The notes under the pieces: generated by a model
What the model was told of the DNA's origin: nothing
Seen by the model: the letters and a program-made list of their open reading frames with translations, nothing else
Databases searched by the model: none
From: Cellulophaga sp. BC115SP
Lineage (GTDB): Bacteria > Bacteroidota > Bacteroidia > Cytophagales > Spirosomataceae
Direction: 5' to 3'
DNA: 64,000 nt
Assembly (NCBI RefSeq): GCF_009905545.1
Contig: NZ_JAAALB010000010.1
Span: 1 to 64,000 of the forward strand
Made by a program: the position numbers and the translations under genes
Part shown: piece by piece, positions 13,759-64,000 of the stretch
How positions within the stretch are numbered: the first letter of the stretch is position 1
Layout of the letters: every line of letters starts with the position of its first letter

Positions 13759-14052
13759 CACTCACAATACTAATGAATTTATAAAAAATCTCAACATTAA
13801 CCCTCTGATTATTTTCTACTTACGCTATTCTGCTATCATGAATCAGAATAATACTTTCACCATAATTCTCATTATCTAAATTTCCCAATACCTATTTATT
13901 ACCACCATTTCCAACAATTCCTTATATCCTTGGTTAATATTTGATTATATCTTGATAAAATGTACATAGCGCTTCCTTCTTGAATAAAGTAATTTTACAT
14001 TATACCCATTTATCTTGGGAAACCGTCTTAGGCATCTTAACTATCATTATGT
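13759..14052. other. Intergenic, nothing recognised
   Basis: This AT-rich stretch separates the divergent XRE and DUF885 genes. No open frame, strong hairpin or clear promoter pair was seen apart from the palindrome at its left end. Confidence 0.4.
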
Positions 14053-15774: not shown

Positions 15775-15780
15775 TAGGAG

Positions 15781-15844
15781 AATTTGAAGATTTGGAAATT
15801 TGAAAATGTGATTACTCATCTTCAAATTTCCAAATCTTCAAATT
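15781..15844. repeat. TTTGAAGATTTG-type hairpin repeat, copy 1
   Basis: Two perfect 24-base arms run 15781-15804 and 15821-15844, made of TTTGAAGATTTGGAAATTTG and its complement around a 16-base loop. The same words occur at 61186-61290 and 61367-61437. It may double as an intercistronic hairpin. Confidence 0.75.
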
Positions 15845-15860
15845 TTCAAATCAACATACC

Positions 15861-17111
15861 ATGAATCACATTTCAATTATTGGCGGGGGGATTGTAGGAT
15901 TAAGTTCTGCTTATTATTTGCATGAAGCGGGCTATAAGGTGACGGTATTTGATAAAGGAGATTTATCGGATAACTGTTCTTATGGTAATGCAGGCTATGT
16001 ATGTCCAAGCCATTTTGTGCCTTTGGCAGCACCTGGGATTATTTGGCAAGGAATCAAATGGATGTTTAATCCTTTGAGTCCTTTTTACGTAAAACCTTCT
16101 TTGAATAAAGCATTAATCAATTGGGGTTTCAAATTTATGCAAAGCGCCAATCCTCAACATGTAGAGAATTCGGCAGTGCCTTTGAGAGATATTTCTTTAT
16201 TGAGTCAAAAACTATTTGAAGAATGGGAGGCGAACGCTGCTTTTGACTTTGGCTATGAGCGTAAAGGTATGCTTGAGATATTCCAAACAGAAGCCGTGGC
16301 AGCCCACGCACACCATACCGTCGAAAAAGCACATGAATTAGGTCTTGATGTAAAATATCTTGATAAAGCACAGTTACAGGCATTAGAACCACAAACGCCC
16401 CTCAATGCCATTGGGGGACTACAGTTTAATTGTGATACTCATGTTTATCCGAACCTTTTAATGAAAAATCTTATCGCAGATTTACAGCAAAAAGGTATCG
16501 AAATCAAAACGAATGAAAGTATTACGGGTTTTGAGAAAAAGAATGGGAAAGTCACTCATATCCGTTCCAACAAACAGCAATATGCTACCGATGGAGTAGT
16601 GGTAGCGGCGGGTTCTTGGAGCCGTGAACTAGCAGAGTTGGTCGATATTACACTTCCACTGATGGCGGGTAGAGGATACTCGTTGACTTTGGAAAATAGT
16701 CCTCATCAAATCAACCATCCTATTATTTTGGCAGAAGGTCGTGTGGCATTAACGCCTATGGATGGCAACAAGATTCGTATGGGAGGTACTATGGAAGTGG
16801 TTTCGACAAACACTCCTCCGAATTTCCAACGTGTAAAAGGAATTTTACAATCAGTCAAAAGCTTTTTACCAACTTTTGATATCGCATTTCCTGCCGAAAA
16901 AGACATCTGGCATGGTTTCCGACCTTGCTCGGCGGACGGTTTGCCTTATATCGGTCGTACTAGTACTTATGACAACGTCGTAATTGCTACAGGGCACTCG
17001 ATGATGGGACTTAGTTTAGGGCCAGGTACAGGAAAATTGGTCGAAGAAATTATCAGCGAAAAACCTACCAGTATCGATATTCAAGCATTCAATCCACAAC
17101 GATTTGACTAA
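15861..17111 (+). CDS. FAD-dependent D-amino-acid dehydrogenase (DadA type), candidate D-hydroxyproline oxidase
   Basis: This 416-residue DAO-fold oxidoreductase has N-terminal FAD motif IIGGGIVGLSSAYYL and C-terminal VIATGHSMMGLSLGPGTGKL. Relatives oxidise D-amino acids, and the same family includes cis-4-hydroxy-D-proline dehydrogenase (HypO-like). The window codes all other hydroxyproline catabolic enzymes at 58.4-62.4 kb but lacks this step there, so I infer that this gene may fill it. A general D-amino-acid dehydrogenase is the alternative. A terminator separates it from the GH127/146 gene 64 bases on. Confidence 0.85.
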   Translation: MNHISIIGGGIVGLSSAYYLHEAGYKVTVFDKGDLSDNCSYGNAGYVCPSHFVPLAAPGIIWQGIKWMFNPLSPFYVKPSLNKALINWGFKFMQSANPQHVENSAVPLRDISLLSQKLFEEWEANAAFDFGYERKGMLEIFQTEAVAAHAHHTVEKAHELGLDVKYLDKAQLQALEPQTPLNAIGGLQFNCDTHVYPNLLMKNLIADLQQKGIEIKTNESITGFEKKNGKVTHIRSNKQQYATDGVVVAAGSWSRELAELVDITLPLMAGRGYSLTLENSPHQINHPIILAEGRVALTPMDGNKIRMGGTMEVVSTNTPPNFQRVKGILQSVKSFLPTFDIAFPAEKDIWHGFRPCSADGLPYIGRTSTYDNVVIATGHSMMGLSLGPGTGKLVEEIISEKPTSIDIQAFNPQRFD

Positions 17112-17116
17112 AAAGT

Positions 17117-17164
17117 AAAGGCTTTTATCTCATGACATCATTCTTAGATAAAAGCCTTTCTTTA
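17117..17164 (+). terminator. Terminator between DadA-like and GH genes
   Basis: AAAGGCTTTTATCT pairs with AGATAAAAGCCTTT, followed by a T-rich tail. Confidence 0.8.
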
Positions 17165-17175
17165 TCTTCTCCTCT

Positions 17176-19536: not shown

Positions 19537-19570
19537 TGGTAAGTGATAAACTACTTTTATCTAAAAGATA

Positions 19571-19608: not shown

Positions 19609-19623
19609 TACTTTACTCATTGC

Positions 19624-20802
19624 TTACTCAATTATTCTTTCAACCATCCAGCCTATTGCCATTACAATCATTATCACTGCCCCAATTTGACGGAAAATGG
19701 TATAATGTCGAGTTTGAGAGAGTAAAAGTAATAGAGGAAATATTACTAAAATAATACATAATTGCATCAGTTCGATTCCTATATTAAAGCCCAAAATACT
19801 TAATACCATTTGTTTGACTGAAAGCTCCAAATTAGTCAAAGTTTCGGCAAAAGCCATTCCATGAATTAACCCAAAACTTCCTGCAATTAAGACTTCTCTT
19901 TTAGGATAAATGGGTTTAAACGCATGTATTGCAGAAATCAAAATCGTAATAGCAATACAGACTTCAATAGGTTTTACGGGTAAATTCAACCATTGCGAAG
20001 CCCCCAACAGTAAGGTTAATGAATGTCCAATGGTAAAGGCTGTGACTATTTTAAGTAATGTCAATGTGCTTGGTTTGAACCCTTTATAAGCGCCCCATTT
20101 TTTATCTTCAACCATAAGCATCGCTGGCAATAACAAGGTCAAAATAAACAAAATATGATCTGTACCCTCTGCAATATGGTCAATACCCAGCACTACCATA
20201 TTCTTGAAGCCTTGCCAAGTACTACCTTGTTGTAAGCTTACTTGAAAAACAGGTATCTTACCACTTGGAATATCCAGAGCTATTATGCCAATTTGTTGTA
20301 AAGTTGAATCTTCCGAAACCAAACCTTGTTGCCAATCCTCTTTAATGTTTACTAAAATCTGGTGACTCGCTACTTGATGTAAAATCACATCATAGTCAAA
20401 ATAAAAATTTCGTAAATCATAATGCTCAGGAGGCACCATCGAAAACATCACAATCAACTCTCTATAATCGCCCGTTGCTCGATTGGCTTTCTCCTCAGTT
20501 ACCCACATTTTCCCTAAGGTTACAGTCCAAGCTTTTCCATCAAAGCTTCTTGGACGAATATGTGCCATTAAATAATGACGAAGTGTATCACCAAGGCGTT
20601 CTACCAAGTGCTCCGAATGGTCGTCAACTCCCATACCAATAGCTGATTGGAGCTCGCCTAAGGGTAATTGTATTTCTCCAGAAATACTTTTTTCATGCAC
20701 CTTGAGTGCCACCATCGAGCTTGGCATAGGATGCCCAAAAAGCTGAATACTCGTAAGAAATGCTATGAAAAGGTATATATATTTAAGATTAACGGACGAC
20801 AT
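19624..20802 (-). CDS. HupE/UreJ-like membrane protein
   Basis: This 392-residue protein has a signal peptide and an extracytoplasmic N-terminal half (to about residue 190). A C-terminal domain of six or seven helices contains the HupE/UreJ_2 motifs GIDHIAEGTDHILFI, TAFTIGHSLTLLLG and GSFGLIHGMAFA. The histidines suggest metal (nickel or similar) handling, but no hydrogenase or urease genes are present. It lies downstream of the DUF3500 lipoprotein gene on the same strand, separated by a repeat. The transport substrate is unknown. Confidence 0.85.
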   Translation of the reverse strand: MSSVNLKYIYLFIAFLTSIQLFGHPMPSSMVALKVHEKSISGEIQLPLGELQSAIGMGVDDHSEHLVERLGDTLRHYLMAHIRPRSFDGKAWTVTLGKMWVTEEKANRATGDYRELIVMFSMVPPEHYDLRNFYFDYDVILHQVASHQILVNIKEDWQQGLVSEDSTLQQIGIIALDIPSGKIPVFQVSLQQGSTWQGFKNMVVLGIDHIAEGTDHILFILTLLLPAMLMVEDKKWGAYKGFKPSTLTLLKIVTAFTIGHSLTLLLGASQWLNLPVKPIEVCIAITILISAIHAFKPIYPKREVLIAGSFGLIHGMAFAETLTNLELSVKQMVLSILGFNIGIELMQLCIILVIFPLLLLLSQTRHYTIFRQIGAVIMIVMAIGWMVERIIE

Positions 20803-20857
20803 AAGTAAAAGTGGCGAGTTTAGGAATATTGAGTTTAAGTATGTGGGTAATTTTATC

Positions 20858-48328: not shown

Positions 48329-48435
48329 TTTGATGATAGATCGTGATACAATCTTTCTATCATTCAATCAATCAATTTTTTACGGGTTATTATTATTGTT
48401 AAATCGGACAGGATTTGGCTCCTTTACCTGTCGTT

Positions 48436-50874
48436 ATGTTTTCAAAAATGATGAAAAATTTAACGACTGAGCGCTTTTTCGCAAAAACTCTTCTAAGCGA
48501 GTTGGCGCAAAAAGCTTTTATGGTTATGTTATTGTGCAGCCTGACCATATCGGCTTATGCACAATTGAGTATTTCGGGTAAAGTAACAGACAGCGAAACC
48601 AAAAAAGGATTGGCTGGCGCAACCCTTACCATCGACAATACGATGCGTGGAACGATTACTGATGCACAAGGTAATTTTGTTATCAAAAACCTCAAAAAAG
48701 GCACTTATACCATCAAAGTAAGCTTCGTAGGTTTTGAAAAGCAAAGTAATGCTATCGAGCTTCAGCAAAATACTAACATTTCTTTTTCGCTTCAAAAAAG
48801 CTCTTTTATGGCCGACGAAGTAGTGGTAAGTGCTACTCGTGCTAATGAAAAATCTGCTGTAGCTTACACCAATGTGAGCAAAGAAGACCTTCAAAAACAA
48901 AATCTGGGTCAGGATATTCCACAATTGCTCAACTTTACGCCTTCGTTGGTAACTACCTCGGATGCAGGGGCTGGGATTGGTTACACGGGTATTCGTATTC
49001 GTGGTACAGACGCTACCCGTATCAATGTTACCATCAATGGGATTCCGCTCAACGATGCCGAATCACAAGGAGTTTATTGGGTAAACATGCCAGACTTTGC
49101 TAGCTCGACCAACTCTATTCAGATTCAGCGTGGCGTGGGTACGTCTACCAACGGAGCTGGAGCGTTTGGGGCAAGTGTCAATATGTCTACAAACGAATTT
49201 AGAAAAGACCCTTATGCAGAATCAAACAACTCGTTTGGATCATTTAATACTTTCAAAAATACCGTTTTAGTAGGTTCAGGTCTTTTGAATAATCGTTTTA
49301 CAGTAGATGCACGTTTGTCGAGACTTAAATCTGATGGTTATATCGATCGTGCTTCTTCAGACCTTCGTTCGTTTTACTTATCAGGTGCGTACTTTACCAA
49401 AAAATCTTTTTATCGTTTGAATGTGTTTTCTGGAAAAGAAAAAACTTACCAAGCTTGGGAAGGTGTTCCTGAGTATTTGTTGAGCACTAACCGTACTTAC
49501 AATCCTTATACCTATCCAAACCAAACCGATAATTATCAGCAAGACCATTATCAATTATTATCATCGCATAGCCTTTCGTCGAACTGGACATTTAATTTCA
49601 ACTTGCATTATACTTACGGACGTGGCTACTATGAGCAATTTAAGGAGCAAGACAAATTCTCGAAATACGGTTTACCCAATGTTGTTATTGGCAATACGAC
49701 TATCACAAAAACGGACTTGGTTCGCCAGAAATGGTTAGACAATGATTTTTATGGAAGTACATTTTCATTCGATTATAAAGGTAATAATCGCTTGAGTGCC
49801 AACATTGGTGGTGCTTGGAACCAATATGATGGTCGTCATTACGGACAAATTATTTGGGCACAATATGCTTCAACAGCTAAGCTAGGTGATAAATACTACA
49901 GTGGCACAGCTCTAAAAACAGACTTTAATATTTATGGAAAAGTATATTATCAATTGAGCGAGCAATTAAATGCATTTGCTGATTTGCAATATCGTACTGT
50001 TGGCTATAGCATTAAAGGAATTGACGATAATTTGGTAGATATTTCACAAAGTAAAAACTACAATTTCTTTAACCCAAAAATGGGCTTAACTTATCAGGTT
50101 TCGGCAGGAACATCTGCATTTTTGTCATATAGTATTGGTAACAAAGAGCCGAACCGTTCGGACTTTGTAGATAATCCAGGAAAAGCACCACAAGCAGAAA
50201 CCTTGCGTGATTTAGAAGCAGGTTTTAAAACACAAAAAGGAAAAGTAGCTTTTGAGGCAAATGCTTATTGGATGGATTACAAAAACCAATTGGTTTTGAC
50301 AGGAAAATTAAACGATGTAGGTACTCCAATACGTGTCAATGTACCAAGTAGCTACAGAATGGGACTTGAGTTGCAAGCAGGAGTTCAATTAACAAAAGCA
50401 TTGAAATGGAATGTAAATGCTACTCTTTCAAGCAACAAAATCAATAATTTTACAGAGGTAGTCCCAAGTTATGATGAACCTTATATTGATGTGGAAAATA
50501 AGTTTGCTAAAACAGACATAGCCTTTTCACCCAATGTAATCGGTGGTTCGCAATTGTTGTATACACCAACAAAAGGACTTGAATTAGGATTGTTGTCGAA
50601 ATACGTAGGAAAGCAATATATGGACAACACAAGCAATGAAAACCGTAAGTTGAATGCTTATTTCACCAACGATTTACGAATTCTTTATACATTTAAACCT
50701 TCTTTTTGTAAAGAGTTAGGGTTGAGTTTATTGGGCAACAACATTTTCAATACGCTTTACGAATCAAATGGTTATACTTATAGCTATATCTACGAGGGCA
50801 AAACTGTTACTGAAAACTTTTATTACCCACAAGCAGGATTTAACTTTTTGCTAGGTGTGAACATTAAGTTTTAA
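48436..50874 (+). CDS. TonB-dependent receptor, probable thiamine/TPP uptake receptor
   Basis: This outer-membrane transporter of about 812 residues has a signal peptide (ends near AYAQ), CarboxypepD_reg-like domain (ISGKVTDSETKKGLAGATL), plug domain and barrel ending in an aromatic strand. The TPP riboswitch in its leader marks it as the thiamine-regulated receptor type found in Bacteroidota. No PnuT or thiamine kinase gene follows, so the inner-membrane partner must lie elsewhere. Starts at 48436 or 48448 fit better than the TTG at 48415. Confidence 0.9.
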   Translation: MFSKMMKNLTTERFFAKTLLSELAQKAFMVMLLCSLTISAYAQLSISGKVTDSETKKGLAGATLTIDNTMRGTITDAQGNFVIKNLKKGTYTIKVSFVGFEKQSNAIELQQNTNISFSLQKSSFMADEVVVSATRANEKSAVAYTNVSKEDLQKQNLGQDIPQLLNFTPSLVTTSDAGAGIGYTGIRIRGTDATRINVTINGIPLNDAESQGVYWVNMPDFASSTNSIQIQRGVGTSTNGAGAFGASVNMSTNEFRKDPYAESNNSFGSFNTFKNTVLVGSGLLNNRFTVDARLSRLKSDGYIDRASSDLRSFYLSGAYFTKKSFYRLNVFSGKEKTYQAWEGVPEYLLSTNRTYNPYTYPNQTDNYQQDHYQLLSSHSLSSNWTFNFNLHYTYGRGYYEQFKEQDKFSKYGLPNVVIGNTTITKTDLVRQKWLDNDFYGSTFSFDYKGNNRLSANIGGAWNQYDGRHYGQIIWAQYASTAKLGDKYYSGTALKTDFNIYGKVYYQLSEQLNAFADLQYRTVGYSIKGIDDNLVDISQSKNYNFFNPKMGLTYQVSAGTSAFLSYSIGNKEPNRSDFVDNPGKAPQAETLRDLEAGFKTQKGKVAFEANAYWMDYKNQLVLTGKLNDVGTPIRVNVPSSYRMGLELQAGVQLTKALKWNVNATLSSNKINNFTEVVPSYDEPYIDVENKFAKTDIAFSPNVIGGSQLLYTPTKGLELGLLSKYVGKQYMDNTSNENRKLNAYFTNDLRILYTFKPSFCKELGLSLLGNNIFNTLYESNGYTYSYIYEGKTVTENFYYPQAGFNFLLGVNIKF

Positions 50875-54202: not shown

Positions 54203-56590
54203 CTACTTCACAGCCCACTCTATAACCCCAGCAGCATTATCAACAGGTAGTTGCACTTCCATTTTGATTACCTTGGTTGTTACGGACTCAAATTGTATAG
54301 TATTGAGCTGGTCTTTGGCAATAGGGCTTTGATTAATGACTTTTACAGGAATCCATTCACCATCTTTTTGGTAGTAAATCTTGTAAGAAGCAGGAATACG
54401 ACAGCCTCCCCAAGGACTATCATCCAACCAATAAATACTTGACGAGGATACCGTGTAAGTTTGGTCAAAGTCATATTGAAGATATTCTGTCGTATTCTTT
54501 TTAGGCCACCAGTGCAAGAAATTGGCACTTTTGTCATTCGAGTTTTCTACTTCATATTGGTCATTTAGTGCTTTGAGCATCAATGGATTGCTCACAGAAC
54601 CTGACACCTTACTTTTACTGGCAATAGTTGGCGCAGGCGTTGGGCGTGCTGCCGTTGCTTCATACGGAATCCAAACTGTCATTTCGGTAGCTCCACGATT
54701 GGCCCAAGAATAGTAGGGTATCGCCTTGATGTCTGTTGTTTTCTTTACCAATTCTTCAGAACCTACTTGTCTTTGTGTGGTGAAACCTTTCATGTTCAAA
54801 GTCATTACTCCGCTCAACAAATCTTGTTGATAAGAGGCTGTAACAGGAGCACTTTTATCCACAACCAAACTCATGACTGATGCTGAGGTATTATCATTTC
54901 CTTCCAAACAATATACCATTGGACCTCTTTGTAAGGCGAATTTTGATTTGTCAGCTTTTACATTATTGTTAGCCAAAATTTTTCTTACATCCATAGGAAG
55001 TGTGAAGCTTACTTTATCACCTTTTTTCCAAATTCTATCAACTACAGCATAGCCTTTTTCCATTTTATAAGAAAATACTTTACCATTTACCAAAAGCTGG
55101 ATTGGGCTTTCTGGTGTTTCATCTTTGTACAAATCACCTGATGATGGTTTACTTAATGCCCAACCCGGAATACGAATGCGTAAAGCAAATTGTGCTGTTT
55201 TTGCAGGAGCAATCGTAATGTCATTTTTCCCTTCCCAAGGATATGCTGTTTGTTGGGTGATCGTCACAGCTGTATTGGGTAATTGAATAGTGGCAGTCCC
55301 TCCTACAAAAAGATTGACATAAAGATTTTTTTGATTTTGAGCATACGTATATCCCGGTACTGAAGGTAGGAAGCGAGTCATATTTGAAACACAGCAAGCA
55401 CAATCCCACCACGCACGACGCTGATGTTGCCCCATAGACGCCAGTGGATTTGGGTAAAAAAACTTATCCCCACTCAATGAAATACCTGAAAGCAAACCGT
55501 TGTAAAGTGTTCTTTCAAGAACATCAACATATTGTGCATCGCCGTGTAATAAAAACATACGCTGATTCCAATAGACATTCGCAATAGCAGCACAGGTTTC
55601 TGCGTAAGCACTCATGTTTGGCAAATCATAATCGTCGCCAAAAGCCTCGCCATTGCCTGTCGCACCGATTCCTCCTGTGATGTAGAGTTTTTTATCAACT
55701 ACGTCATGCCAAATATCATCAATCGCAGACAAGTAAGCTTTGTCGCCAGTAAGCGCTGCCACATCGGCCATTCCTGTGTACATATAGGTGGCACGTACCG
55801 CGTGACCAACAGCTGTATGTTGATCTACGACTTTTTTGTGTGACTGGCTATATTCTTGATTGAAGTGTCCTTCTTTTCCTCTTAAATCTAAAAAGAACTT
55901 AGCTAAATCAAGATAGGCTTTTTTGCCAGTGACTCTATACAATTTTGTCAAACCTGTTTCTACGATTTGGTGTCCAGGAAAGCGTTCTTCTTTTCCCCAG
56001 CCAAAGGTTTTTACCAATAAATCAGCGTTTCTGATGGCAATATTCAAAAGGTTCTTTTTGCCTGTTGCCTGATAATGCGCAACTGCTGACTCGAATAAGT
56101 GACCAGCATTATAGAGTTCATGACTCAAATCTTCTTCTTTTTCCCAACGTTTAGCGCCAAGCCATTCATGAGGTTTTTGGATAGGCATGGTTCTAAAAGT
56201 ATATAAATAGCCATCTGCCTCTTGCGCTGAGCCAATAATCGTAATCAAGGAATCAAGATAGGCTTCTAGTTGAGGGTTTTTCTGTGTTTGTAGACTGTAA
56301 GAAGCCCCTTCAATGACTTTATAAAGGTCGGTATCATCAAACGTAAAAGAAGTGCTTTTATCGGCAGGGATTTGCTTTGCTGCTTTACGGAAATTGTCAA
56401 TACGTCCTGTGATTTTACACTGATTAAGCGTGTAAGGAATAGTCACATTGGCGTTCACCTGCATTTTGGGCGTCCAAAAATTATCTTTAAAATGAACTTG
56501 TGTAAATGCCACAGGCTGAATAGGATAATCGCCTTTTTGGGCAAAAACTCCTAAACAAAAAAAGCAGAAAAGTATCGTTTTGTGTATCAT
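54203..56590 (-). CDS. Exported GH127 beta-L-arabinofuranosidase
   Basis: This 795-residue enzyme has a signal peptide (to about VFAQ, residue 18). The catalytic (alpha/alpha)6 barrel has the GH127 zinc/cysteine residues in AETCAAIANVYWNQRM (about 328-343) and WWDCACCVSNMTRFLPSVPG (about 393-412). These match HypBA1-type enzymes that remove beta-L-arabinofuranose from hydroxyproline-linked arabinooligosaccharides of plant extensins. Beta-sandwich domains follow, and the C-terminal part includes a discoidin-like WLDDSPWGGCRIPASYKIYY. It lies in line with the hydroxyproline catabolic genes. Confidence 0.88.
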   Translation of the reverse strand: MIHKTILFCFFCLGVFAQKGDYPIQPVAFTQVHFKDNFWTPKMQVNANVTIPYTLNQCKITGRIDNFRKAAKQIPADKSTSFTFDDTDLYKVIEGASYSLQTQKNPQLEAYLDSLITIIGSAQEADGYLYTFRTMPIQKPHEWLGAKRWEKEEDLSHELYNAGHLFESAVAHYQATGKKNLLNIAIRNADLLVKTFGWGKEERFPGHQIVETGLTKLYRVTGKKAYLDLAKFFLDLRGKEGHFNQEYSQSHKKVVDQHTAVGHAVRATYMYTGMADVAALTGDKAYLSAIDDIWHDVVDKKLYITGGIGATGNGEAFGDDYDLPNMSAYAETCAAIANVYWNQRMFLLHGDAQYVDVLERTLYNGLLSGISLSGDKFFYPNPLASMGQHQRRAWWDCACCVSNMTRFLPSVPGYTYAQNQKNLYVNLFVGGTATIQLPNTAVTITQQTAYPWEGKNDITIAPAKTAQFALRIRIPGWALSKPSSGDLYKDETPESPIQLLVNGKVFSYKMEKGYAVVDRIWKKGDKVSFTLPMDVRKILANNNVKADKSKFALQRGPMVYCLEGNDNTSASVMSLVVDKSAPVTASYQQDLLSGVMTLNMKGFTTQRQVGSEELVKKTTDIKAIPYYSWANRGATEMTVWIPYEATAARPTPAPTIASKSKVSGSVSNPLMLKALNDQYEVENSNDKSANFLHWWPKKNTTEYLQYDFDQTYTVSSSSIYWLDDSPWGGCRIPASYKIYYQKDGEWIPVKVINQSPIAKDQLNTIQFESVTTKVIKMEVQLPVDNAAGVIEWAVK

Positions 56591-56671
56591 ATTCTATGGC
56601 GCGAATGCTTGAATGAAGATCCAGTTTGAGCAGATATCATTTTAAATAATATTTACTCTCCAGACACTCAT

Positions 56672-58081
56672 TTATAATTCGCTATTATTTTTTTTCAATA
56701 TATAAAAAACAGGAATCCCTAGTAATACTAAACCTAAGCCTGGCCAAGTATAATTGGGTTTATAAATAAGTAATAAAATACAAATACAAGTTGCTGTAAA
56801 AATATACAGTAATGGCACAAATGGATATCCAAATGCTTTGTAAGGTCTTTCAAGTTCTGGTTTTTTGATTCGTAAACGAATAATTCCTAGAATGGTAAGT
56901 GCATAAAAAATGAGTACTGCAAAAATCACATAGTCGAGGAGTTCGCCGTACTTACCACTCAAACATAAAACCGAAGCCCAAGCACATTGAATCCATAGTG
57001 CTTTTTCGGGAACACCATTTTTGTTCAGTTCTCCTACTTTTTTGAAGAATAGACCATCATTTGCCATCGTGTAATACACACGGGCGCCAGCTAAGATAAG
57101 TCCATTATCACAACCAAAAGTCGAAATCATTAAGAAAATGGCAACAATCATAGTGCCCTCTTCTCCAAAAATATGTTGAGAAGCTACTACCCCCACTCGA
57201 TCATTTTCTGCAAAAGCAATCGACGGTAAATCTAATACCGAAACATACATGATATTGGTGAGCAAATAAATGCTTGTTACAATGAGTGTTCCGAGGAAAA
57301 GACTTAGACCAATATTGCGTTGTGGATTTTGGATTTCGCCAGCGATAAATGTCACATTATTCCAAGAATCACTACTAAACAAACTTCCGACCATACTAGC
57401 GGCGATTGCTCCGAAGGCAGCCCAACCTGTGTATGGTAAAAATCCTGAAGAGGTAAGTTGTTGAATAGAAAAGCCTGTTTCCCAGTTATGATGCCAAGTT
57501 TCGGTATTAGCCGTAAGAATAAACCCAAAAATAACTAATCCAAATAAGGCAAGCAGTTTGGTCACTGTAAAAATTGACTGGACATATTTTCCGTATTGAA
57601 CACCACGCGTGTTGATAAACGAAAGAAAAATGATAAGGGCTATAGAGGTAAGCTGTGCTGCTGAAATATTGAGTTCTAGGACAGAGAATAGAATATTTTT
57701 TTCGCTTAAAACAGGAAAAAGATAGGCTGAAAATTTGCTAAAGGCAACCCCAACGGCTGCGATAGAGCCTGTTTGGATTACGGTAAAAAAGCTCCAACCA
57801 TACAAGAACCCAATCAGAGGATTGAAGGCCTCTTTGAGATAAATATATTGCCCTCCTGCTTTGGGAAACATACCACTTAGCTCGCCATAACTAACGGCCG
57901 CCGCTACAGTGAGTAATCCAGTAAGAACCCATACTAAAAGTAACCCTCCAGCAGAACCTACATTTCGGACAATATCAGAACTTACAATAAAAATCCCTGA
58001 CCCGATCATGGAGCCCGCCACAATCATTGTGGCATCGAAGAGGCGAAAGGAGCGTTTGAAGGATGGTTGTTCTTGAGACAT
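56672..58081 (-). CDS. APC family amino-acid permease
   Basis: This 469-residue inner-membrane transporter has about 12 helices. The N-terminal motif DATMIVAGSMIGSGIFIVSS is typical of the APC superfamily, as is FPKAGGQYIYLKEAFNP in the second helical region. It lies between the GH127 gene and the 4-hydroxyproline epimerase gene, all on the same strand, so hydroxyproline or a related amino acid is the likely cargo. That substrate is inferred from context only. Confidence 0.88.
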   Translation of the reverse strand: MSQEQPSFKRSFRLFDATMIVAGSMIGSGIFIVSSDIVRNVGSAGGLLLVWVLTGLLTVAAAVSYGELSGMFPKAGGQYIYLKEAFNPLIGFLYGWSFFTVIQTGSIAAVGVAFSKFSAYLFPVLSEKNILFSVLELNISAAQLTSIALIIFLSFINTRGVQYGKYVQSIFTVTKLLALFGLVIFGFILTANTETWHHNWETGFSIQQLTSSGFLPYTGWAAFGAIAASMVGSLFSSDSWNNVTFIAGEIQNPQRNIGLSLFLGTLIVTSIYLLTNIMYVSVLDLPSIAFAENDRVGVVASQHIFGEEGTMIVAIFLMISTFGCDNGLILAGARVYYTMANDGLFFKKVGELNKNGVPEKALWIQCAWASVLCLSGKYGELLDYVIFAVLIFYALTILGIIRLRIKKPELERPYKAFGYPFVPLLYIFTATCICILLLIYKPNYTWPGLGLVLLGIPVFYILKKNNSEL

Positions 58082-58082
58082 A

Positions 58083-58235
58083 GTTGAGTGATTTAGTGAT
58101 TGATGAATGAGTGATTGAATAAGTGCAAATCTTCATACTCACTCCACCGCTCCACCACTCAATCACTCAATAAAGTCAGGTATTAATGCAAAATAAAATC
58201 ATATTGCTTTAGGCTGTAAGCCTTAGGCATTAGGT
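58083..58235. repeat. Intergenic repeats upstream of the permease gene
   Basis: Positions 58083-58170 contain GAGTGATTTAGTGATTGATG and CACTCAATCACTCAATAA, words shared with the arms of the 38560-38820 element. Positions 58179-58235 hold dispersed fold-back repeat copy 7: TTAATGCAAAATAAAATC, then GCTTTAGGCTGTAAGCC and TTAGGCATTAGG. The rest of the 306-base gap shows nothing recognisable. Confidence 0.72.
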
Positions 58236-58387
58236 AAAATATGCTCAAAGAAGCTCAGATATATCTTGCATACTTATGAGGGTAATCCTACAAATTAAAA
58301 TTTTGAGTGATTGTGGATGCAAGGTGCTGATAATTAAAATCTTACATTTTGAATTCGCAACTCGCAATTCACCACTCAACATTAATG

Positions 58388-59389
58388 CTAAAGTACTTGA
58401 AACCCATAAGCATAAGGATCATCCTCTGGGTCGATATTGATGGTATTGTAGCCATAGATTCTTGCCCAGCCCTCTATACTTGGTTTCATGGCGGGCTTTC
58501 CTCCTACGGTCGTTTCTTCTTCTATTCTTCCAATAAATTTTGAACCGATGATACTTTCATGAATAAACTCATCCCCTTTCTTCAATTTACCTTTGGCATA
58601 CCATTGCGCCATACGTGCCGAAGTACCCGTACCACATGGCGAGCGGTCAATGGCTTTGTCTCCGTAAAATACCGCATTACGAGCTGTAGAGGTTGGGTCT
58701 AATACATCGCCAGTCCACAAGATATGCGAACAACCTTTGATGGTATCATTTTCGGGATGCACAAAAGAATATTGCTCATTGATGCGGTTACGTAAGGTTC
58801 TACTCCAACTAATAAGCTGGTCAGCGCTGTAATGTTGCAAGCCTTTGAAATTTTCTTGAACATCAACAATGGCATAAAAGTTACCACCATACGAAACATC
58901 TACTTTGATAGGACCTAAATCAGGACATTCTACACTCAAATCGGTAGCTGCTAAGAAAGAAGATACGTTGGTGAGTTTTACACTTTTTACCTTTTTACCT
59001 TCCTGTTTATAGTCAATTAACACCAAACCAGCAGGAGCTTCCATACGGATTTTTCCTTCTACTTTTGGTGTAATTAATCCTTCTTCTACGGCAATAGTGA
59101 TTGTTCCGATTGTACCATGTCCACACATGGGCAGACAGCCACTTGTTTCGATAAACAATACCGCTACGTCATTTTCTGGGTCATGAGGAGGATACAAAAT
59201 ACTTCCGCTCATCATATCATGACCACGAGGCTCGAACATAAGCCCTTTTCGAATCCAATCGTAATTTTGAAGGAAATACTGGCGTTTTTCGCTCATATTA
59301 CTTCCTTCAAGCACAGGCCCACCTCCTGCCACTAGTCTCACGGGATTACCACAAGTATGGGCGTCTACACAAAAAAATGTTTTTTTCAT
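58388..59389 (-). CDS. 4-hydroxyproline epimerase
   Basis: This 333-residue cytoplasmic enzyme of the proline racemase superfamily interconverts trans-4-hydroxy-L-proline and cis-4-hydroxy-D-proline. Both catalytic Cys residues are present, in PMCGHGTIG (about residue 87) and DRSPCGTGTSARMA (about 251). The two-Cys set excludes the trans-3-hydroxyproline dehydratase group, which has Thr at the second site. The specificity for hydroxyproline rather than proline is inferred from the neighbouring pathway genes. It is transcribed with the downstream permease and GH127 genes or from its own promoter (gaps of about 300 bases). Confidence 0.9.
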   Translation of the reverse strand: MKKTFFCVDAHTCGNPVRLVAGGGPVLEGSNMSEKRQYFLQNYDWIRKGLMFEPRGHDMMSGSILYPPHDPENDVAVLFIETSGCLPMCGHGTIGTITIAVEEGLITPKVEGKIRMEAPAGLVLIDYKQEGKKVKSVKLTNVSSFLAATDLSVECPDLGPIKVDVSYGGNFYAIVDVQENFKGLQHYSADQLISWSRTLRNRINEQYSFVHPENDTIKGCSHILWTGDVLDPTSTARNAVFYGDKAIDRSPCGTGTSARMAQWYAKGKLKKGDEFIHESIIGSKFIGRIEEETTVGGKPAMKPSIEGWARIYGYNTINIDPEDDPYAYGFQVL

Positions 59390-59709
59390 AGTTTTATCAG
59401 GGGTAAGAATGAGTGCTGAATTGGGAGTTGTGAATTAGTACTGTACGAAAGATTTCCAACTATTTCAGATTTGGGATTTCTGATTTCGGAAAAAAGTAAA
59501 ATACCTTTAATTTTTACAAAATATAAAAGACTCCACTTCCAATGTTAAAAATTACGGCAAAGGCACCGAAGGAATTGTATTGAACAGTGAGTAGTCGACA
59601 GTAAAAGGTTTTCCACATACATACACCTAATAGTCAAAAGCTCATAGTCGCTTATTTCGAGTGCCTAAGCAGTAATAACTAATCACGTAATCATTCATTA
59701 ACTTACTAA
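59390..59709. other. Intergenic, nothing recognised
   Basis: This 320-base gap between the dehydrogenase and epimerase genes has no gene or terminator. A short TTTGGGATTTCTGATTTCGG stretch near 59471-59490 is mildly repetitive. Confidence 0.4.
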
Positions 59710-61176
59710 CTAAATTGTTTCGTTGGTAAATGTATCATTGACCAAACGCCAAATTTTTAATGGATTACCATCTTTTAATTCTTCTGGTAACATCCAATCT
59801 TTGAATCCTTGTAAACAAATTGGTCTAACCCAACGCTTAATGGCGCTTGTACCTACCGAAGTATAGCGAGCGTCGAAAGTGGAAGGGTACGCTCCTCCAT
59901 GAACCATGCTACCAGCAACCTCCACACCTGTTGGGGCGGCGTTTAAAATCACACGACCAGCCAGAGAGCATTGTAGCGTCAATATTTCAGGATAGTTTTC
60001 AACATCCTGTTCTGTCGCCATTAAGGTAGTGGTAAGTTGTCCACCAAGTGCTTTGAGGGCTTGTGAAAGTTCTTGTACATCTTGACAAATCACAAGTAAT
60101 GCAAAAGGCCCAAATGCTTCCTCATGTAAAAGTGGATTTTCGATGAAATCCTTTGCTGAAACCTTCGCAAGACTAGGAGTAGGTTTTTCTAAATCCTCAA
60201 CCACAGCCAGAGAAGCTTCAGAAGCTACTCCTGCTTGCGATGTAATAGTGTAGCGTGCTTTATCAAATGCCTTTGCAATACCAGAGTGCAACATAGGATG
60301 CAAGGCAACCTGTGTAAGCTCTTGTTCTAAGGTCTCTGAAAAAGTACTTAATGCAGGACTATCGATTGCCAAAAGCAAGCCCGGTTTGGTACAAAACTGT
60401 CCCATCCCTAGCGAAATAGAACCTGCAAGGGTTTTTGCTAACGTTGTATTAGTTTGGTTTAATGATTCAGGGAATAAAACTACAGGATTGATACTACTCA
60501 TTTCGGCGAAGACAGGAATAGGAACTTCCCTTTGGTCGGCGTACGCTTTGAGAGCTTTACCTCCAGCTTGTGAGCCTGTAAAACCAACTGCTGTAGTGAG
60601 TGGATGCATCACCAATGCTTTACCTGTTTCGTTACTAACATCACTAATATGCTGTATTGTAAAAGGATGTATTTGACAGCGTGAAATGGCTTTTTCCATC
60701 GCCGAGAACATCAATGCTGAAGTTTCAGGATGGGCAGGATGTGCTTTAATGACTACCGAAACACCAGCAGCCAAAGCACTTGCGGTATCACCGCCTGCGG
60801 TAGAAAAAGCAAACGGAAAATTGCTAGCACCAAAAATAGCCACAGGGCCAATCGGTACAAGCATTTTACGGGTATCTGGCTTAGGTGGTACTCGGTCAGG
60901 ATTGGCTGTATCGATACAGGCTTCAACCCAAGAGCCTTCGGCAATAAGACGAGCAAACATGCGTAATTGACCTGTTGTTCGTCCAATTTCTCCTTGAAGC
61001 CTTGGCAATGGAAGATTAGTTTCTTGATGTGCAATAGTCACCAATGAATCTTTCAATGCTTCTATTTCTTCTGCGATGGTTTCTAAAAAAATAGCACGGT
61101 TTTTACCCGATACTTGGCGGTAATGCTCAAATGCCTCTTGTGCTTGTTGCATTACCGTTGAAATGATTTGAGACAT
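59710..61176 (-). CDS. Alpha-ketoglutarate semialdehyde (2,5-dioxovalerate) dehydrogenase
   Basis: This aldehyde dehydrogenase of about 488 residues oxidises 2,5-dioxopentanoate to 2-oxoglutarate with NAD(P)+, the last step of hydroxyproline use. Catalytic Cys is in MGQFCTKPG (about residue 259), the NAD-site segment is GASNFPFAFSTAGGD, and the Glu region is FAEMSSINPV. The short opening ETIAEEIEALKDSL fits the 2,5-dioxovalerate group. The start at 61176 (MSQIISTVM) is chosen. The longer frame to 61257 reads through TTTGAAGATTTG repeats. Confidence 0.88.
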   Translation of the reverse strand: MSQIISTVMQQAQEAFEHYRQVSGKNRAIFLETIAEEIEALKDSLVTIAHQETNLPLPRLQGEIGRTTGQLRMFARLIAEGSWVEACIDTANPDRVPPKPDTRKMLVPIGPVAIFGASNFPFAFSTAGGDTASALAAGVSVVIKAHPAHPETSALMFSAMEKAISRCQIHPFTIQHISDVSNETGKALVMHPLTTAVGFTGSQAGGKALKAYADQREVPIPVFAEMSSINPVVLFPESLNQTNTTLAKTLAGSISLGMGQFCTKPGLLLAIDSPALSTFSETLEQELTQVALHPMLHSGIAKAFDKARYTITSQAGVASEASLAVVEDLEKPTPSLAKVSAKDFIENPLLHEEAFGPFALLVICQDVQELSQALKALGGQLTTTLMATEQDVENYPEILTLQCSLAGRVILNAAPTGVEVAGSMVHGGAYPSTFDARYTSVGTSAIKRWVRPICLQGFKDWMLPEELKDGNPLKIWRLVNDTFTNETI

Positions 61177-61185
61177 TTTTTTTAA

Positions 61186-61437
61186 ATTTGAAAATGCGTT
61201 AATCTTCAAGATTTGAAGATGAGTTAATTTGAAGATTTGAAAATAATTAAACGACACATTTTTAAAATTTCAAATCCTCAAATTCTCAAACGATAATAGA
61301 CAAAAGACTATCCCCTTCATCACCTCTAATCTAATAGCCAAAGGTCAAGTACAGCCTTTTAAGTTTGAAAATGAGTTAATTTGAAGATTTGAAAATAATT
61401 AAACGATACATTTTCAAATCTTCAAATCCCCAAATTA
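61186..61437. repeat. TTTGAAGATTTG-type repeats, two copies
   Basis: Two near-identical segments of about 50-60 bases, 61220-61280 and 61370-61433, share GAGTTAATTTGAAGATTTGA and AAATAATTAAACGA then ACATTTT. Each is followed by inverted CAAATCTTCAAAT-like words. The related hairpin at 15781-15844 carries the same motif. Confidence 0.75.
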
Positions 61438-62355
61438 TAATACAATCGCCTTATAATCTGGCAAAGTTGGTCTGATTGCAATAGCGCCATCAATAAGTGC
61501 TAAAATGCGTTCTCTTTCAGCACCGCTAAGTACCAAACGTGGTGGGCGCACCGCTTCACTACCCAAATCAACTCTTGATTCAGCCAACTTGATGTATTGT
61601 ACTAATTTTGGATGAATATCTAATTCTAACAATGGCATGAACCAACGGTAAATGCTAAGAGCTTCTTCGTAGCGACCAGCTTTTACTAATTTATAAATGG
61701 CCACCGTTTCCTCAGGGAAGGCACATACCAAACCTGCAACCCATCCATCAGCACCCATCACCAATTGTTCCATAGCAATGGTATCTACACCACACATGAT
61801 TTTGAATCTGTCGCCAAAACGATTACGCATTCTGGTTACGTTGGTCAAATCACGCGTAGATTCTTTTACTGCCTGAATGTTTTCGCACTCAGCCAAGGCA
61901 GCAAACATATCCAATGTTACTTCAATTTTATAATCTACAGGGTTATTGTAAATCATAATAGGAAGTGTAGTTGAATTGGCTACCGCTTTGAAATATTCTA
62001 CTGTTTCGAAGTCATCAGCTTTGTAGCGCATCGGAGGAAGCATCATCAAACCAGCGGCACCCCACTCTTCGGCTAGTTTAGCCAATTGAATTGCATCTCT
62101 GGTAGCTCCTTCAGCAATATTTAAAACTACTGGAACACGTCCAGCTACCTTTTCAACGGTAAACTTTACCAACGCTCCTTTTTCTTCTAGACTCAGTACA
62201 CTTGCCTCACCTAAGGTTCCGCCAAGAATGATACCGTCGACACCTGCCTCAAGTTGGAATTGCAAGTTTTTGTCAAATAATTCAAAATCAAGTTGGTCAT
62301 CTGCACCAAACTTTGTCGTCACAGCGGGAAATACGCCTTGCCAATTGATTGCCAT
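61435..62355 (-). CDS. 1-pyrroline-4-hydroxy-2-carboxylate deaminase (DHDPS/NAL family)
   Basis: This TIM-barrel Schiff-base enzyme of about 306 residues has the catalytic Lys in QAVKESTRD (about residue 163) and the Tyr in IMIYNNPVD (about 133). GGTLGEASVLSLEEK replaces the usual DapA phosphate-binding GTTGE motif. In this operon position the member acts on 1-pyrroline-4-hydroxy-2-carboxylate to give 2-oxoglutarate semialdehyde. It is not the housekeeping dihydrodipicolinate synthase. The start at 62355 (MAINWQGV) is chosen. It is the first gene of the minus-strand cluster. Confidence 0.83.
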   Translation of the reverse strand: MAINWQGVFPAVTTKFGADDQLDFELFDKNLQFQLEAGVDGIILGGTLGEASVLSLEEKGALVKFTVEKVAGRVPVVLNIAEGATRDAIQLAKLAEEWGAAGLMMLPPMRYKADDFETVEYFKAVANSTTLPIMIYNNPVDYKIEVTLDMFAALAECENIQAVKESTRDLTNVTRMRNRFGDRFKIMCGVDTIAMEQLVMGADGWVAGLVCAFPEETVAIYKLVKAGRYEEALSIYRWFMPLLELDIHPKLVQYIKLAESRVDLGSEAVRPPRLVLSGAERERILALIDGAIAIRPTLPDYKAIVL

Positions 62356-62376
62356 AGTTCTGTTGTTGTTTTTTAT

Positions 62377-62406
62377 CAAAATTACCCAAAACATAAGCGG
62401 GTCAAA
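62377..62406 (-). promoter_or_regulatory. Promoter of the hydroxyproline gene cluster
   Basis: On the minus strand TTTG (62406-62403) and TAATTTTG (62384-62377) are separated by 18 bases, close to the Bacteroidota consensus. The leader to the start at 62355 would be short, about 15 bases. The AraC regulator gene is divergent on the other side of this region. Confidence 0.5.
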
Positions 62407-62659
62407 GGTTGATTTTTAATCAATTATAGCCAGATATTAACCTGTTTATGTGTGATATATCTATAAAGTTGTTTATATTTAGCTAATTAGTAGAAAAGAG
62501 TGTTCGGGTAGCATGAAGGCAAACTAATTTTAGCTTTTGGGTATTGGATTTGGGTAGCGGAGTTTAAATGTTATTTTGTGATAGACTCATAGATTGAGTA
62601 CCTGTAGATTCAAAACCAAGACAGACGTTGAATCCTTTTAAATAGTATTTAATGAGCAA

Positions 62660-63529
62660 ATGAAAGTATTACAATTTACTATTCCCGTACCGCACGATCA
62701 TACGATTATCGTTCAGCAGGACATCATGCCTTATTTCTATCCACATTTGCATAGACATGAGGAAATACAGATTACATGGGTGCAACAAGGTGAAGGAACT
62801 TTGATTGCGGATAATAATATGCACACCTTCAAATCGAATGATATTTTTTGGTTGGGTGCCAATCAACCGCACATGTTTAAGAGTGATCCGAGCTATTTTT
62901 TACCTAAAAGCGAATTAGAGATTCAAGCCTTGGTACTATTTTTTAATCCTCATGGACCATTAGCGGCTTTGTTTAACTTACCCGAAATGCTCAATGTAAA
63001 ACGCTTTTTACAACAAAATCCCAACGGATTTAAGATACCAGCAGAAAAAGCGGAGGAGATTTCGACCAAAATGATGCTCATTCACGAACATATCGGTATC
63101 GAGCAAATGATTCATTTTATGGATTTGCTGAGGCTAATTTCTAGCATAGAACCACTGGATGCACTTTCGGAAGGCTCAAGACCAAAACTTTACAGTGAAA
63201 ACGAGGGCTTGAGAATGAGTAATATCTATAATTTTATCATTCAAGAATTTGAAAAGCCTATTACTCTCGAAGATGCAGCTAATAAAGCGCACATGACTCC
63301 GCATGCTTTTTGTAGATATTTCAAAAAGCACACAGGTCATACCTTTTTATCGTTCCTAAATGAAGTACGTATTAATGAAGCCTGTAAAAAACTCACCAAC
63401 GAATCTCCCATTGGTATTGCACAAGTAGCCTACAGTTGTGGTTTTAATAGTATTACCAACTTCAACCGTATCTTCAAACGCATCAAGGGCAAATCCCCAA
63501 GTGAGTATTTGGAGGAGTTTTTTAAGTGA
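62660..63529 (+). CDS. AraC family regulator of the hydroxyproline cluster
   Basis: This 289-residue regulator has an N-terminal cupin sensor (HLHRHEEIQITWVQQGEGTL, DIFWLGANQPHMFK) and C-terminal double helix-turn-helix (ANKAHMTPHAFCRYFKKHTGH, IAQVAYSCGFNSITNFNRIFK). It is divergent from the hydroxyproline deaminase gene over a 304-base gap and is the obvious candidate activator. It is a paralogue of the AraC protein at 40269-41129. The ligand is unknown. Confidence 0.9.
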   Translation: MKVLQFTIPVPHDHTIIVQQDIMPYFYPHLHRHEEIQITWVQQGEGTLIADNNMHTFKSNDIFWLGANQPHMFKSDPSYFLPKSELEIQALVLFFNPHGPLAALFNLPEMLNVKRFLQQNPNGFKIPAEKAEEISTKMMLIHEHIGIEQMIHFMDLLRLISSIEPLDALSEGSRPKLYSENEGLRMSNIYNFIIQEFEKPITLEDAANKAHMTPHAFCRYFKKHTGHTFLSFLNEVRINEACKKLTNESPIGIAQVAYSCGFNSITNFNRIFKRIKGKSPSEYLEEFFK

Positions 63530-63571
63530 GGAATTGGGAATGTTAAGTTTTGAATATGCTATAGTTATCTA

Positions 63572-64000
63572 TCATACAATACACTCCAGAATCTGTACTT
63601 GTAATGCTTTCCAATCGAGTGGCTCTGACGAAATGAGCTCTAGACGGCTATCCCTTCTGTATGCCAAATAATGGCTCGTTGGCATACCTTCTACGCAATT
63701 GTACAAATACCAATCTTCGCCTGTTCGTAAGATTCCTTTAGCTCGATGAATTTTATTGTCAAAATACCAGCGTACTATCAACATATTGAGTTTGTTGAGG
63801 TCGAATACCTCTTTATGAGAAAAAATCCAGCCACATGAATAACTTCCCAAGCCTTTGTTGGGTTTCATGATTGGCTTACCTACTCTTGGAACTTGCTGAA
63901 ATAAAACTGATTGAGTCGTATGATTTTCTACAGGCGACTCGTGCTCTAAATGCTCATTTGGGAATTGAGGTAAACGATTTTCATCAATTCCTAAACTTAG
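63572..64000 (-). CDS. CobW/YeiR-family GTP-binding metal chaperone, C-terminal part
   Basis: The frame is open from the right edge of the window (64000) to the stop at 63572. The visible 142 residues look like the C-terminal domain of a COG0523 GTPase: RAKGILRTGEDWYLYN, then YRRDSRLELISSEPLDW. The GTPase domain with its Walker motifs and CxCC metal site would lie beyond 64000, so it cannot be checked. The stretch upstream of the Met at 63868 is also coding, so that Met is not the real start. Confidence 0.6.
   Translation of the reverse strand, partial: LSLGIDENRLPQFPNEHLEHESPVENHTTQSVLFQQVPRVGKPIMKPNKGLGSYSCGWIFSHKEVFDLNKLNMLIVRWYFDNKIHRAKGILRTGEDWYLYNCVEGMPTSHYLAYRRDSRLELISSEPLDWKALQVQILECIV

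Follow-up and report, generated by a model that had tools for sequence, protein, structure and literature searches.

Genes for all four enzyme families of the trans-4-hydroxyproline (Hyp) pathway are present in the genome of Cellulophaga sp. BC115SP, and Hyp catabolism is nearly certain. We report that these genes lie, together with two genes for predicted beta-L-arabinofuranosidases, in a 64,000-nt stretch of this genome (from here: the window), in two halves that form a single block in congeners and that, judging from sequence comparison, were separated by an inversion. Plant and green-algal walls contain extensins and arabinogalactan proteins as an abundant and resistant component. The Hyp genes travel with both arabinofuranosidase genes in the nearest relatives, which suggests a dedicated use of wall glycoproteins. 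On balance, we consider it probable that the locus serves the utilisation of Hyp O-arabinosides from plant or algal hydroxyproline-rich (extensin-type) glycoproteins.

Gene content and arrangement of the two halves

An earlier note on this DNA had placed six genes together at positions 54203–63529, and profile searches recovered all of them there. The minus strand carries a GH127 beta-L-arabinofuranosidase (54203–56590; PF07944, 366 bits, with PF20736, PF20737 and PF00754), an APC-family amino-acid permease as candidate Hyp importer (56672–58081; PF13520, 180 bits), the 4-hydroxyproline epimerase (58388–59389; NF010578, 598.8 bits at a curated cut-off of 376), a probable 2-oxoglutarate semialdehyde dehydrogenase (59710–61257; PF00171) and a DHDPS-family gene for a probable pyrroline-4-hydroxy-2-carboxylate deaminase (61435–62394; PF00701, 206.6 bits). 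An AraC-family regulator gene (62660–63529; PF12833, PF02311) is oriented divergently on the plus strand. The epimerase is the sole PF05544 match in a profile search of the whole genome. The aldehyde dehydrogenase, whose real start is probably nearer to 61182, fits by family and position and has the PDB entries 1eyy and 3v4c, 'aldehyde dehydrogenase (NADP+)', as top matches, with the NCBIfam cut-off reached by none of the best 25 of 36 families. Among 80 named epimerase loci of other genomes, the clusters of the deaminase, the aldehyde dehydrogenase, the AraC regulator and the permease were present in 63, 59, 28 and 14, respectively.

The D-Hyp dehydrogenase is absent from 54203–63529. Because it lies outside, this span is not a complete Hyp route, and the earlier proposal of a complete route in one locus had to be abandoned: the dehydrogenase and a second arabinofuranosidase gene sit about 35–37 kb away, behind the inversion. 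There, on the plus strand, a gene for a FAD-dependent, DadA-like D-hydroxyproline dehydrogenase (15861–17111; PF01266, 236.6 bits) is flanked by genes for a DUF885 protein, a predicted secreted metallopeptidase (14053–15774; PF05960, 157.8 bits), and for a GH146-type beta-L-arabinofuranosidase (17176–19536; PF07944, 402.5 bits, with PF20736, DUF6805 and DUF4986). The top PF01266 (FAD-oxidoreductase) match of the genome falls on 15870–17048, and the protein groups with an oxidase found in 65 of the 80 epimerase loci of other genomes. Its assignment to the D-Hyp dehydrogenase step is a prediction from family and conserved neighbourhood, with the gene forming one block with the Hyp genes in congeners; the NCBIfam cut-off was reached by none of its best 25 matches. 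The DUF885 cluster occurs in 21 of the 80 named epimerase loci, and H394, E395, G399, H400 and E423 are invariant across 26 sequences. As a weak lead, the protein may be an ACE-like peptidase, its closest Foldseek match outside DUF885 (E 0.03, TM 0.28).

In three congeners (L195, L196, L198) the block reads DUF885-DAO-GH146-AraC-DHDPS-ALDH-EPI-APC-GH127. Comparison with the genome G066 points to an inverted segment of about 44 kb (19539–63530) that splits the locus here, with breakpoints near 19.54 and 63.53 kb: in G066 the sequence matching 63560–64000 adjoins that matching 19620–20850, and GH146 adjoins AraC. Among the 25 best (longest) of 109 inverted repeat pairs, none has arms at both breakpoints, hence no repeat among these accounts for the inversion or hints at misassembly.

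Assignment of the two arabinofuranosidases

The GH127 protein, with a C-terminal F5/8-type C domain and, by eye, a signal-like segment at its N-terminus, matches best the PDB entry 6ex6 (703 bits), which we take to be BT3674, and HypBA1 (3wkw) at 317 bits. Ten active-site positions of HypBA1 are conserved: H142, Y145, H194 and R273 together with, in presumed HypBA1 numbering, E322, E338, C340, C415, C417 and C418. With the PF07944 fold, its Zn-Cys active site and the sugar-binding residues of HypBA1 in place, beta-L-arabinofuranosidase activity is predicted. An identity as aceric-acid hydrolase was dropped because the NF049879 score, 470 bits, is far below the cut-off of 950.

The top PDB matches of the protein encoded at 17176–19536 are 5opj/6yqh (469 bits), presumably BT0349, followed by 8k7x (252 bits), presumably Bll3HypBA1, while the best GH127 entry, 4qjy, reached 77 bits. 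It is thus closer to BT0349 and Bll3HypBA1 than to GH127 enzymes, as expected of a GH146-type enzyme, and may act on Hyp-beta-Araf. PMC10850190 names H142, Y145, H194 and R273 of HypBA1 and reports Araf-beta-Hyp as a substrate of two GH146 enzymes, XeHypBA1 and Bll4HypBA1.

Linkage of arabinofuranosidases to Hyp catabolism in Bacteroidota

Linkage was scored in the 60 other epimerase genomes within a 296-genome Bacteroidota sample. A PF07944 gene lay within 10 kb of the epimerase in seven of them against 0.47 expected, about 15 times chance; the corresponding counts were 2 against 0.26 within 5 kb and 10 against 1.1 within 25 kb. Scoring took in up to six PF07944 candidates per genome, and positions were listed for 76 of the 98 matches counted, for which reason linkage may be undercounted. 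The seven linked genomes span five genera; in two (G170, G350) the PF07944 protein has about 1000 residues and belongs to another subgroup. Such linkage remains a minority trait, since 53 of the 60 genomes have no PF07944 gene within 10 kb. At the genome level, in counts that ignore genome size and kinship, 22 of the 47 genomes with GH127 and 23 of the 43 with GH146 carry the epimerase, compared with 60 of 295 overall (own genome excluded). Against random regions, GH127 alone was found in 3/60 epimerase and 1/40 random regions (P 0.47), GH146 in 5/60 and 0/40 (P 0.073); the epimerase ORF was missing from the ORF calls for five of 60 regions from the phylum and three of 40 from the family, and these regions stayed in the counts.

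Within the own family, 8 of 15 GH146 relatives with at least 50% identity were within 15 kb of an epimerase, versus 0 of 14 homologues below 50% (Fisher 0.0015), at an identity cut set after the list was seen. GH127 or GH146 occurs in 23 of the 80 named epimerase loci in several gene orders, and the linked GH127 genes derive from several clades in a quick tree with long branches and mostly linked sequences. Conversely, most mapped Hyp loci lack a glycosidase, none of the seven phylum-sample homologues nearest to this GH127 (59–68% identity) lies within 10 kb of an epimerase, and in two genomes (G439, G275; loci L275, L276) a GH146-GH127 pair has no Hyp genes in the surrounding 12 kb.

A promoter/operator-like element, GGTTAATATCTGGCTATA, precedes the deaminase gene (62425–62442, minus strand) and is conserved across genera; a similar one precedes the DUF885 gene (13932–13949, plus strand). 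The two are the only matches with 0–1 mismatches in the 7.08-Mb genome to a pattern built from these same two sites, and the likeness of the two regions has no significance by itself, since 15/18 is reached in 95 of 500 shuffles. In operons that begin with GH127, the element, as trained on deaminase promoters, precedes GH127: compared with 1680 other genes, 7 of 9 distinct loci lie above the 95% quantile and 4 above the 99% quantile, with 0/9 carrying it before the deaminase gene. It was not enriched before GH146 (0/22 above 99%, P 0.41) or DUF885 (2/36, the window and L201; P 0.9). P values of 0.00015 before aminopeptidase genes and 0.017 before DPP4 genes were also noted. An apparent enrichment before the dehydrogenase gene (P 4e-7) was dropped; none passed the 99% threshold, hits resembled GGTTACAATAC... 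and the signal is taken to be an artefact of the conserved 3' coding end of the epimerase.

These data bear on an alternative that we regard as unlikely: an ordinary catabolic locus for free Hyp, next to which GH127 and GH146 would have come to lie as an independent mobile pair, directed at the beta-arabinofuranose in arabinogalactan, arabinan or rhamnogalacturonan II and sharing no function with the Hyp genes. The pairs apart from Hyp genes, the unlinked closest GH127 homologues and the lack of enrichment of the element before GH146 all agree with it, as does the nearest solved GH127 structure, 6ex6. BT3674 is tied to larch arabinogalactan breakdown in the available part of PMC10850190. Linkage at about 15 times chance, its restriction in the own family to one GH146 group, the differing GH127 clades in differing gene orders and an element common to GH127-first operons nevertheless speak against it. 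On the same grounds, the tie between arabinofuranosidase and Hyp breakdown proposed in the earlier note goes beyond chance neighbourhood, although most sampled Hyp loci are without GH127. Accidental neighbourhood of GH127 in most relatives, named there as a refutation, is partly borne out. As the whole story accident is contradicted by the linkage counts, the GH146-group specificity and the GH127-first element; it is retained within the alternative in view of the seven unlinked GH127 homologues that are nearest in the phylum sample.

Peptidase families were found in 16/60 epimerase regions compared with 0/40 random regions of the same genomes; those at the Hyp loci of relatives are of the DPP4, aminopeptidase-P and M1 types. 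This exceeds the glycosidase linkage (7/60) and, with the absence of glycosidases from most mapped loci, would suit a locus for Hyp-containing peptides generally, including collagen-like ones, in which peptidases and Hyp pathway are the core and glycosidases widen the range to glycosylated peptides in some lineages only. We judge this quite improbable, given that both glycosidases lie inside the block in this genus and that further sugar-related genes stand beside some loci: GH27 in 9 of the 80 named loci, always beside GH127 (partial in L091), GH51 in three (L045, L048, L113), and arabinose genes for ribulokinase- and ribulose-5-phosphate-4-epimerase-like proteins in four (L045, L046, L063, L139) and in 0/40 random regions. 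These neighbours indicate arabinosylated and galactosylated substrates.

Proposed function and comparison with known systems

For the preferred use of Hyp O-arabinosides, GH127 and GH146, likely periplasmic, would trim beta-L-arabinofuranose, GH146 most likely removing the last sugar from Hyp. Shortening of the peptides would fall to secreted peptidases: the DUF885 protein in the window and the DPP4-, aminopeptidase-P- and M1-type enzymes in relatives. Hyp would enter through the APC permease and be converted to 2-oxoglutarate by the epimerase, D-Hyp dehydrogenase, deaminase and semialdehyde dehydrogenase, while the divergent AraC protein probably turns the gene set on. It is possible, and put forward here tentatively, that this is a dedicated Bacteroidota system for Hyp-O-arabinosides of plant and algal wall glycoproteins, rebuilt several times under one AraC-type switch, in which the amino acid is burnt, and the sugar too where arabinose genes are attached.

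No locus joining arabinofuranosidase and Hyp catabolism was described in the parts of the literature searched; arabinose-trimming enzymes are already known, and bacterial use of the Hyp backbone afterwards was not found there. If the locus couples deglycosylation with Hyp catabolism, it would give genetic work a testable entry point, supply candidate enzymes for Hyp-arabinosides and assign DUF885 a role.

Like HypBA1/HypBA2 and Bll4HypBA1 of Bifidobacterium longum (GH127, GH121, GH146), the window encodes a GH127 enzyme with HypBA1 residues and a GH146 enzyme. According to the available parts of the sources, Bll4HypBA1 takes Araf off Hyp (PMC10850190) and the bifidobacterial cluster is a degradation and import system for arabino-oligosaccharides (PMC7263609). 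In contrast, the window has linked Hyp breakdown genes, and no GH121 was seen in its locus. XeHypBA1 of Xanthomonas euvesicatoria is likewise a GH146 enzyme for Araf-beta-Hyp, and the available part of PMC10850190 does not mention a connection to Hyp catabolism. For Latescibacteria (WS3), GH127 was proposed in silico to free arabinose from extensin Hyp, with no Hyp-catabolic locus described in the accessible text (PMC4454575). Bacteroidota polysaccharide utilisation loci resemble the window in signal-bearing glycosidases and a nearby regulator but differ in their SusC/SusD pair, the main product here being an amino acid: no SusC/SusD cluster member occurs among the window ORFs of 13–27 kb or 46–64 kb, no SusD among the scanned ORFs beside both halves, and a single TonB-dependent receptor (48415–50874) stands without such a pair. 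In some relatives, a hybrid sensor kinase gene (L148) or SusC/SusD-like genes lie alongside. A word search of the main text of the 2014 paper on proline-racemase neighbourhoods (PMC4113996) returned no instance of bacteroidetes, glycosid, arabinofuranos, DUF1680, spirosoma or chitinophaga. With the bacterial trans-4-hydroxy-L-proline pathway the locus shares the four enzyme families, in a single block in congeners, and to these it adds two beta-L-arabinofuranosidase genes and DUF885, split here by the inversion.

Hydroxyproline genes of the window and a distant candidate dehydrogenase

Profile searches of the window ORFs found, at 54203-63529, all six genes that the earlier note had named. On the minus strand of this span lie a gene of the DHDPS family (the putative deaminase) and genes for an aldehyde dehydrogenase (ALDH), a 4-hydroxyproline epimerase (EPI), an APC permease and a GH127 glycosidase (54203-56590), and the AraC gene is divergent from these minus-strand hydroxyproline (Hyp) genes. 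EPI scores 598.8 bits with NF010578 (cut-off 376) and is the single match of the epimerase profile PF05544 in the 7.08-Mb genome; PF07944, the profile of the GH127/GH146 fold, has 8 matches in the genome, two of them inside the window.

The further claim that the span encodes a complete Hyp route fails at one step: the FAD D-Hyp dehydrogenase, which is required for converting trans-4-Hyp to 2-oxoglutarate via the epimerase, is absent from 54203-63529. The genome's best match of the FAD-oxidoreductase profile PF01266 lies at window 15870-17048, in a gene (15861-17111) that clusters with an oxidase present in 65 of the 80 named-genome loci whose ORFs were clustered. This set, the best 80 of at least 593 confirmed epimerase loci, was picked by epimerase similarity and is rich in Chitinophagaceae and Sphingobacteriaceae. 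Neighbours of this putative dehydrogenase gene are a DUF885 gene, with its cluster in 21 of the 80 loci, and the second PF07944 gene of the window (17176-19536). Among solved structures, the product of the latter is closest to 5opj/6yqh, which we take to be BT0349 of GH146. AT-rich imperfect palindromes of the TTTGAAGATTTGAAAAT type occur in the gaps before the dehydrogenase gene (15778-15851) and the ALDH gene (61225-61437), and recur at the matching gaps of congeners.

In three congeners (G001, G037 and G066; loci L195, L196 and L198) one block comprises DUF885, dehydrogenase, GH146, AraC (opposite strand), DHDPS, ALDH, EPI, APC and GH127, with small inserts in the GH146-AraC gap of two of the three and with the DUF885 gene reaching the edge of each fetched region. 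A fourth congener has EPI, APC and GH127 adjoining, with EPI located at a contig end. By BLASTN, the G037 block matches window 15253-19538 in forward and 63529-54203, in two pieces, in reversed orientation. Window segments 63560-64000 and 19620-20850 are 43 kb apart, and their counterparts in G066 (contig C99, 246496-246919 and 247002-248202) about 80 bp. Because both old and both new junctions were seen, the window assembly carries the signature of a ~44-kb inversion relative to G066, at about 19.54-63.53 kb (19539-63530), which would have split the Hyp locus. Each breakpoint directly follows a stop codon, that of GH146 at one end and that of AraC at the other. Where the window inversion breaks, congeners have toxin-antitoxin-like genes between GH146 and AraC (L196:4518-4892, L198:14427-15097), of the Fic/DOC family in G037 and a Gp49-like plus helix-turn-helix pair in G066.

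Enzymes, neighbouring genes and a proposed mechanism

All ten HypBA1 residues checked are conserved in the GH127 of the window. HypBA1 is itself a GH127 according to the accessible text of PMC10850190, which also gives the GH146 enzymes XeHypBA1 and Bll4HypBA1 as active on Araf-beta-Hyp and BT3674, a GH127, as helping arabinogalactan breakdown. For the DUF885 model (mean pLDDT 89.2), good structural matches were limited to other DUF885 structures; the next match is angiotensin-converting enzyme (E 0.03, TM 0.28). Given its invariant HExxxGH motif, the DUF885 protein is plausibly a metallopeptidase.

In the mechanism that we propose, periplasmic peptidases and the two beta-arabinofuranosidases would probably act on glycopeptide fragments brought into the cell envelope and set free Hyp and L-arabinose, and Hyp would probably be taken up by the APC permease. 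Four cytoplasmic enzymes would then probably convert it to 2-oxoglutarate, and AraC is the probable governor of the whole gene set. Signal segments of the proteins were judged by eye. The Hyp locus of the window showed no SusC/SusD pair. A lone TonB-dependent receptor (48415-50874), near the GH127 end of the locus, is the sole receptor seen in the vicinity; in another genome such a gene lies directly 3′ of the permease gene (L201:5123-7678).

The earlier note had proposed a look for secreted peptidases with Pro/Hyp specificity. Genes for DUF885 proteins or for peptidases of the DPP4-type S9, Xaa-Pro aminopeptidase or M1 kinds occurred in 16/60 epimerase regions of the phylum sample and in 0/40 control regions (random, 20 kb, same genomes). 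A GH27-type gene (Melibiase_2) was present in 9/80 named loci, always beside GH127 (in L091 a partial GH127, detected by tblastn only); extensin serines bear alpha-galactose. GH51-type alpha-L-arabinofuranosidase genes were present at L045, L048 and L113. Genes of the L-arabinose pathway, related to those of ribulokinase and of ribulose-5-phosphate 4-epimerase, stand beside the Hyp locus at L045:16241-20989, L046:17656-20843, L063:38-4045 and L139:3-2372, together with an arabinose isomerase at L045 and a relative of it at L063; the 40 control regions contained no such kinase or epimerase relatives. By their predicted functions these neighbour sets match parts of the extensin glycopeptide, and no single locus among those examined held the full set.

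Linkage of glycosidase and epimerase genes

For the phylum sample, 296 genomes with a completeness of 90% or more were used; counting the own genome, 61 of them had an epimerase over the cut-off, and 96 had a PF07944 match. The earlier note had asked whether GH127 and Hyp genes co-occur in Bacteroidota more than by chance. With the own genome excluded, 7/60 epimerase genomes had a PF07944 gene no more than 10 kb away, where gene number and genome size predict 0.47; in 53/60 none was found within this distance. Within 25 kb the count was 10/60 (1.1 expected) and within 5 kb 2/60 (0.26 expected, P 0.027). The seven genomes linked within 10 kb belong to five genera and three families, and in two the gene encodes a ~1000-residue protein of another subgroup. 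Such a protein is encoded between DPP4 and DUF885 genes in the Hyp loci L156 (15897-18947) and L169 of two genomes of family f7.

Across 150 genomes of the own family, relatives of the window GH146 with at least 50% identity were linked to the epimerase within 10 kb in 6/15 and within 15 kb in 8/15 cases against 0/14 for homologues below 50% (Fisher 0.011 and 0.0015, respectively), the identity cut being post hoc with the list already seen; five of the eight belong outside the own genus. Among the named loci (best 80 of at least 593), the GH127 cluster occurred in 16, the GH146 cluster in 11 and at least one of them in 23. Because gene orders differ (GH127-GH27-DHDPS-ALDH-EPI-DAO, EPI-GH127-GH146-DAO, EPI-APC-GH127 and EPI-GH127-DAO, DAO being the oxidase) and linked GH127s spread over several clades of the tree, the comparison suggests that glycosidase and Hyp genes were joined repeatedly.

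Other results weigh against such a link. Of 110 own-family genomes with an epimerase over the cut-off besides the own, 40 loci were fetched, and GH127 or GH146 was present in six, four of them congeners. GH127 occurred in 3/60 epimerase regions against 1/40 control regions (P 0.47) and GH146 in 5/60 against 0/40 (P 0.073), the control being too small to decide in either case. None of the seven closest homologues of the window GH127 in the phylum sample (59-68% identity) is epimerase-linked, six of these genomes having an epimerase elsewhere; among the named loci, L048 and L078 contain a linked GH127, with 64 and 67% identity. In two genomes of another family (f5), GH146 stands directly with GH127 as a compact pair (L275:3719-8481, L276:4091-8860) with no Hyp genes in the 12 kb fetched, so that the pair, as judged by gene arrangement, is a module with or without Hyp genes.

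A promoter-like element and comparison with described systems

Upstream of DHDPS, the own genus, G036 and several Chitinophagaceae have an 18-bp promoter- or operator-like element, GGTTAATATNNGGNNATAATTGATTAAAA. A matrix built from seven deaminase-gene sites was scanned up to 300 bp upstream of ORFs in 180 loci (L040-L119 and L135-L234) plus eight window genes, with quantiles from 1680 other genes. Over all scanned loci the element was enriched before GH127 (4/25 above the 99% quantile, P 1e-8), with no enrichment before GH146 (0/22) or DUF885 (2/36, namely the window and L201). In nine distinct, mutually related Mucilaginibacter-type loci with GH127-first operons (L140, which duplicates L060, not being counted), GH127 upstream regions exceeded the 95% quantile in 7/9 and the 99% quantile in 4/9, and DHDPS upstream regions exceeded the 95% quantile in 0/9, in a post hoc test; in these operons the element seems to have shifted to the gene that now comes first. 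A similar sequence precedes DUF885 in the window; this and the deaminase site are the genome's only matches with 0-1 mismatches to a pattern derived from these two, and their resemblance taken alone is not significant.

Searches of an open-access library turned up, in titles, abstract openings and text passages, no description of a locus joining GH127/GH146 with Hyp catabolism. The nearest system is that of an in silico paper on Latescibacteria (PMC4454575), in the accessible text of which GH127 is tied to extensin, not to Hyp catabolism.
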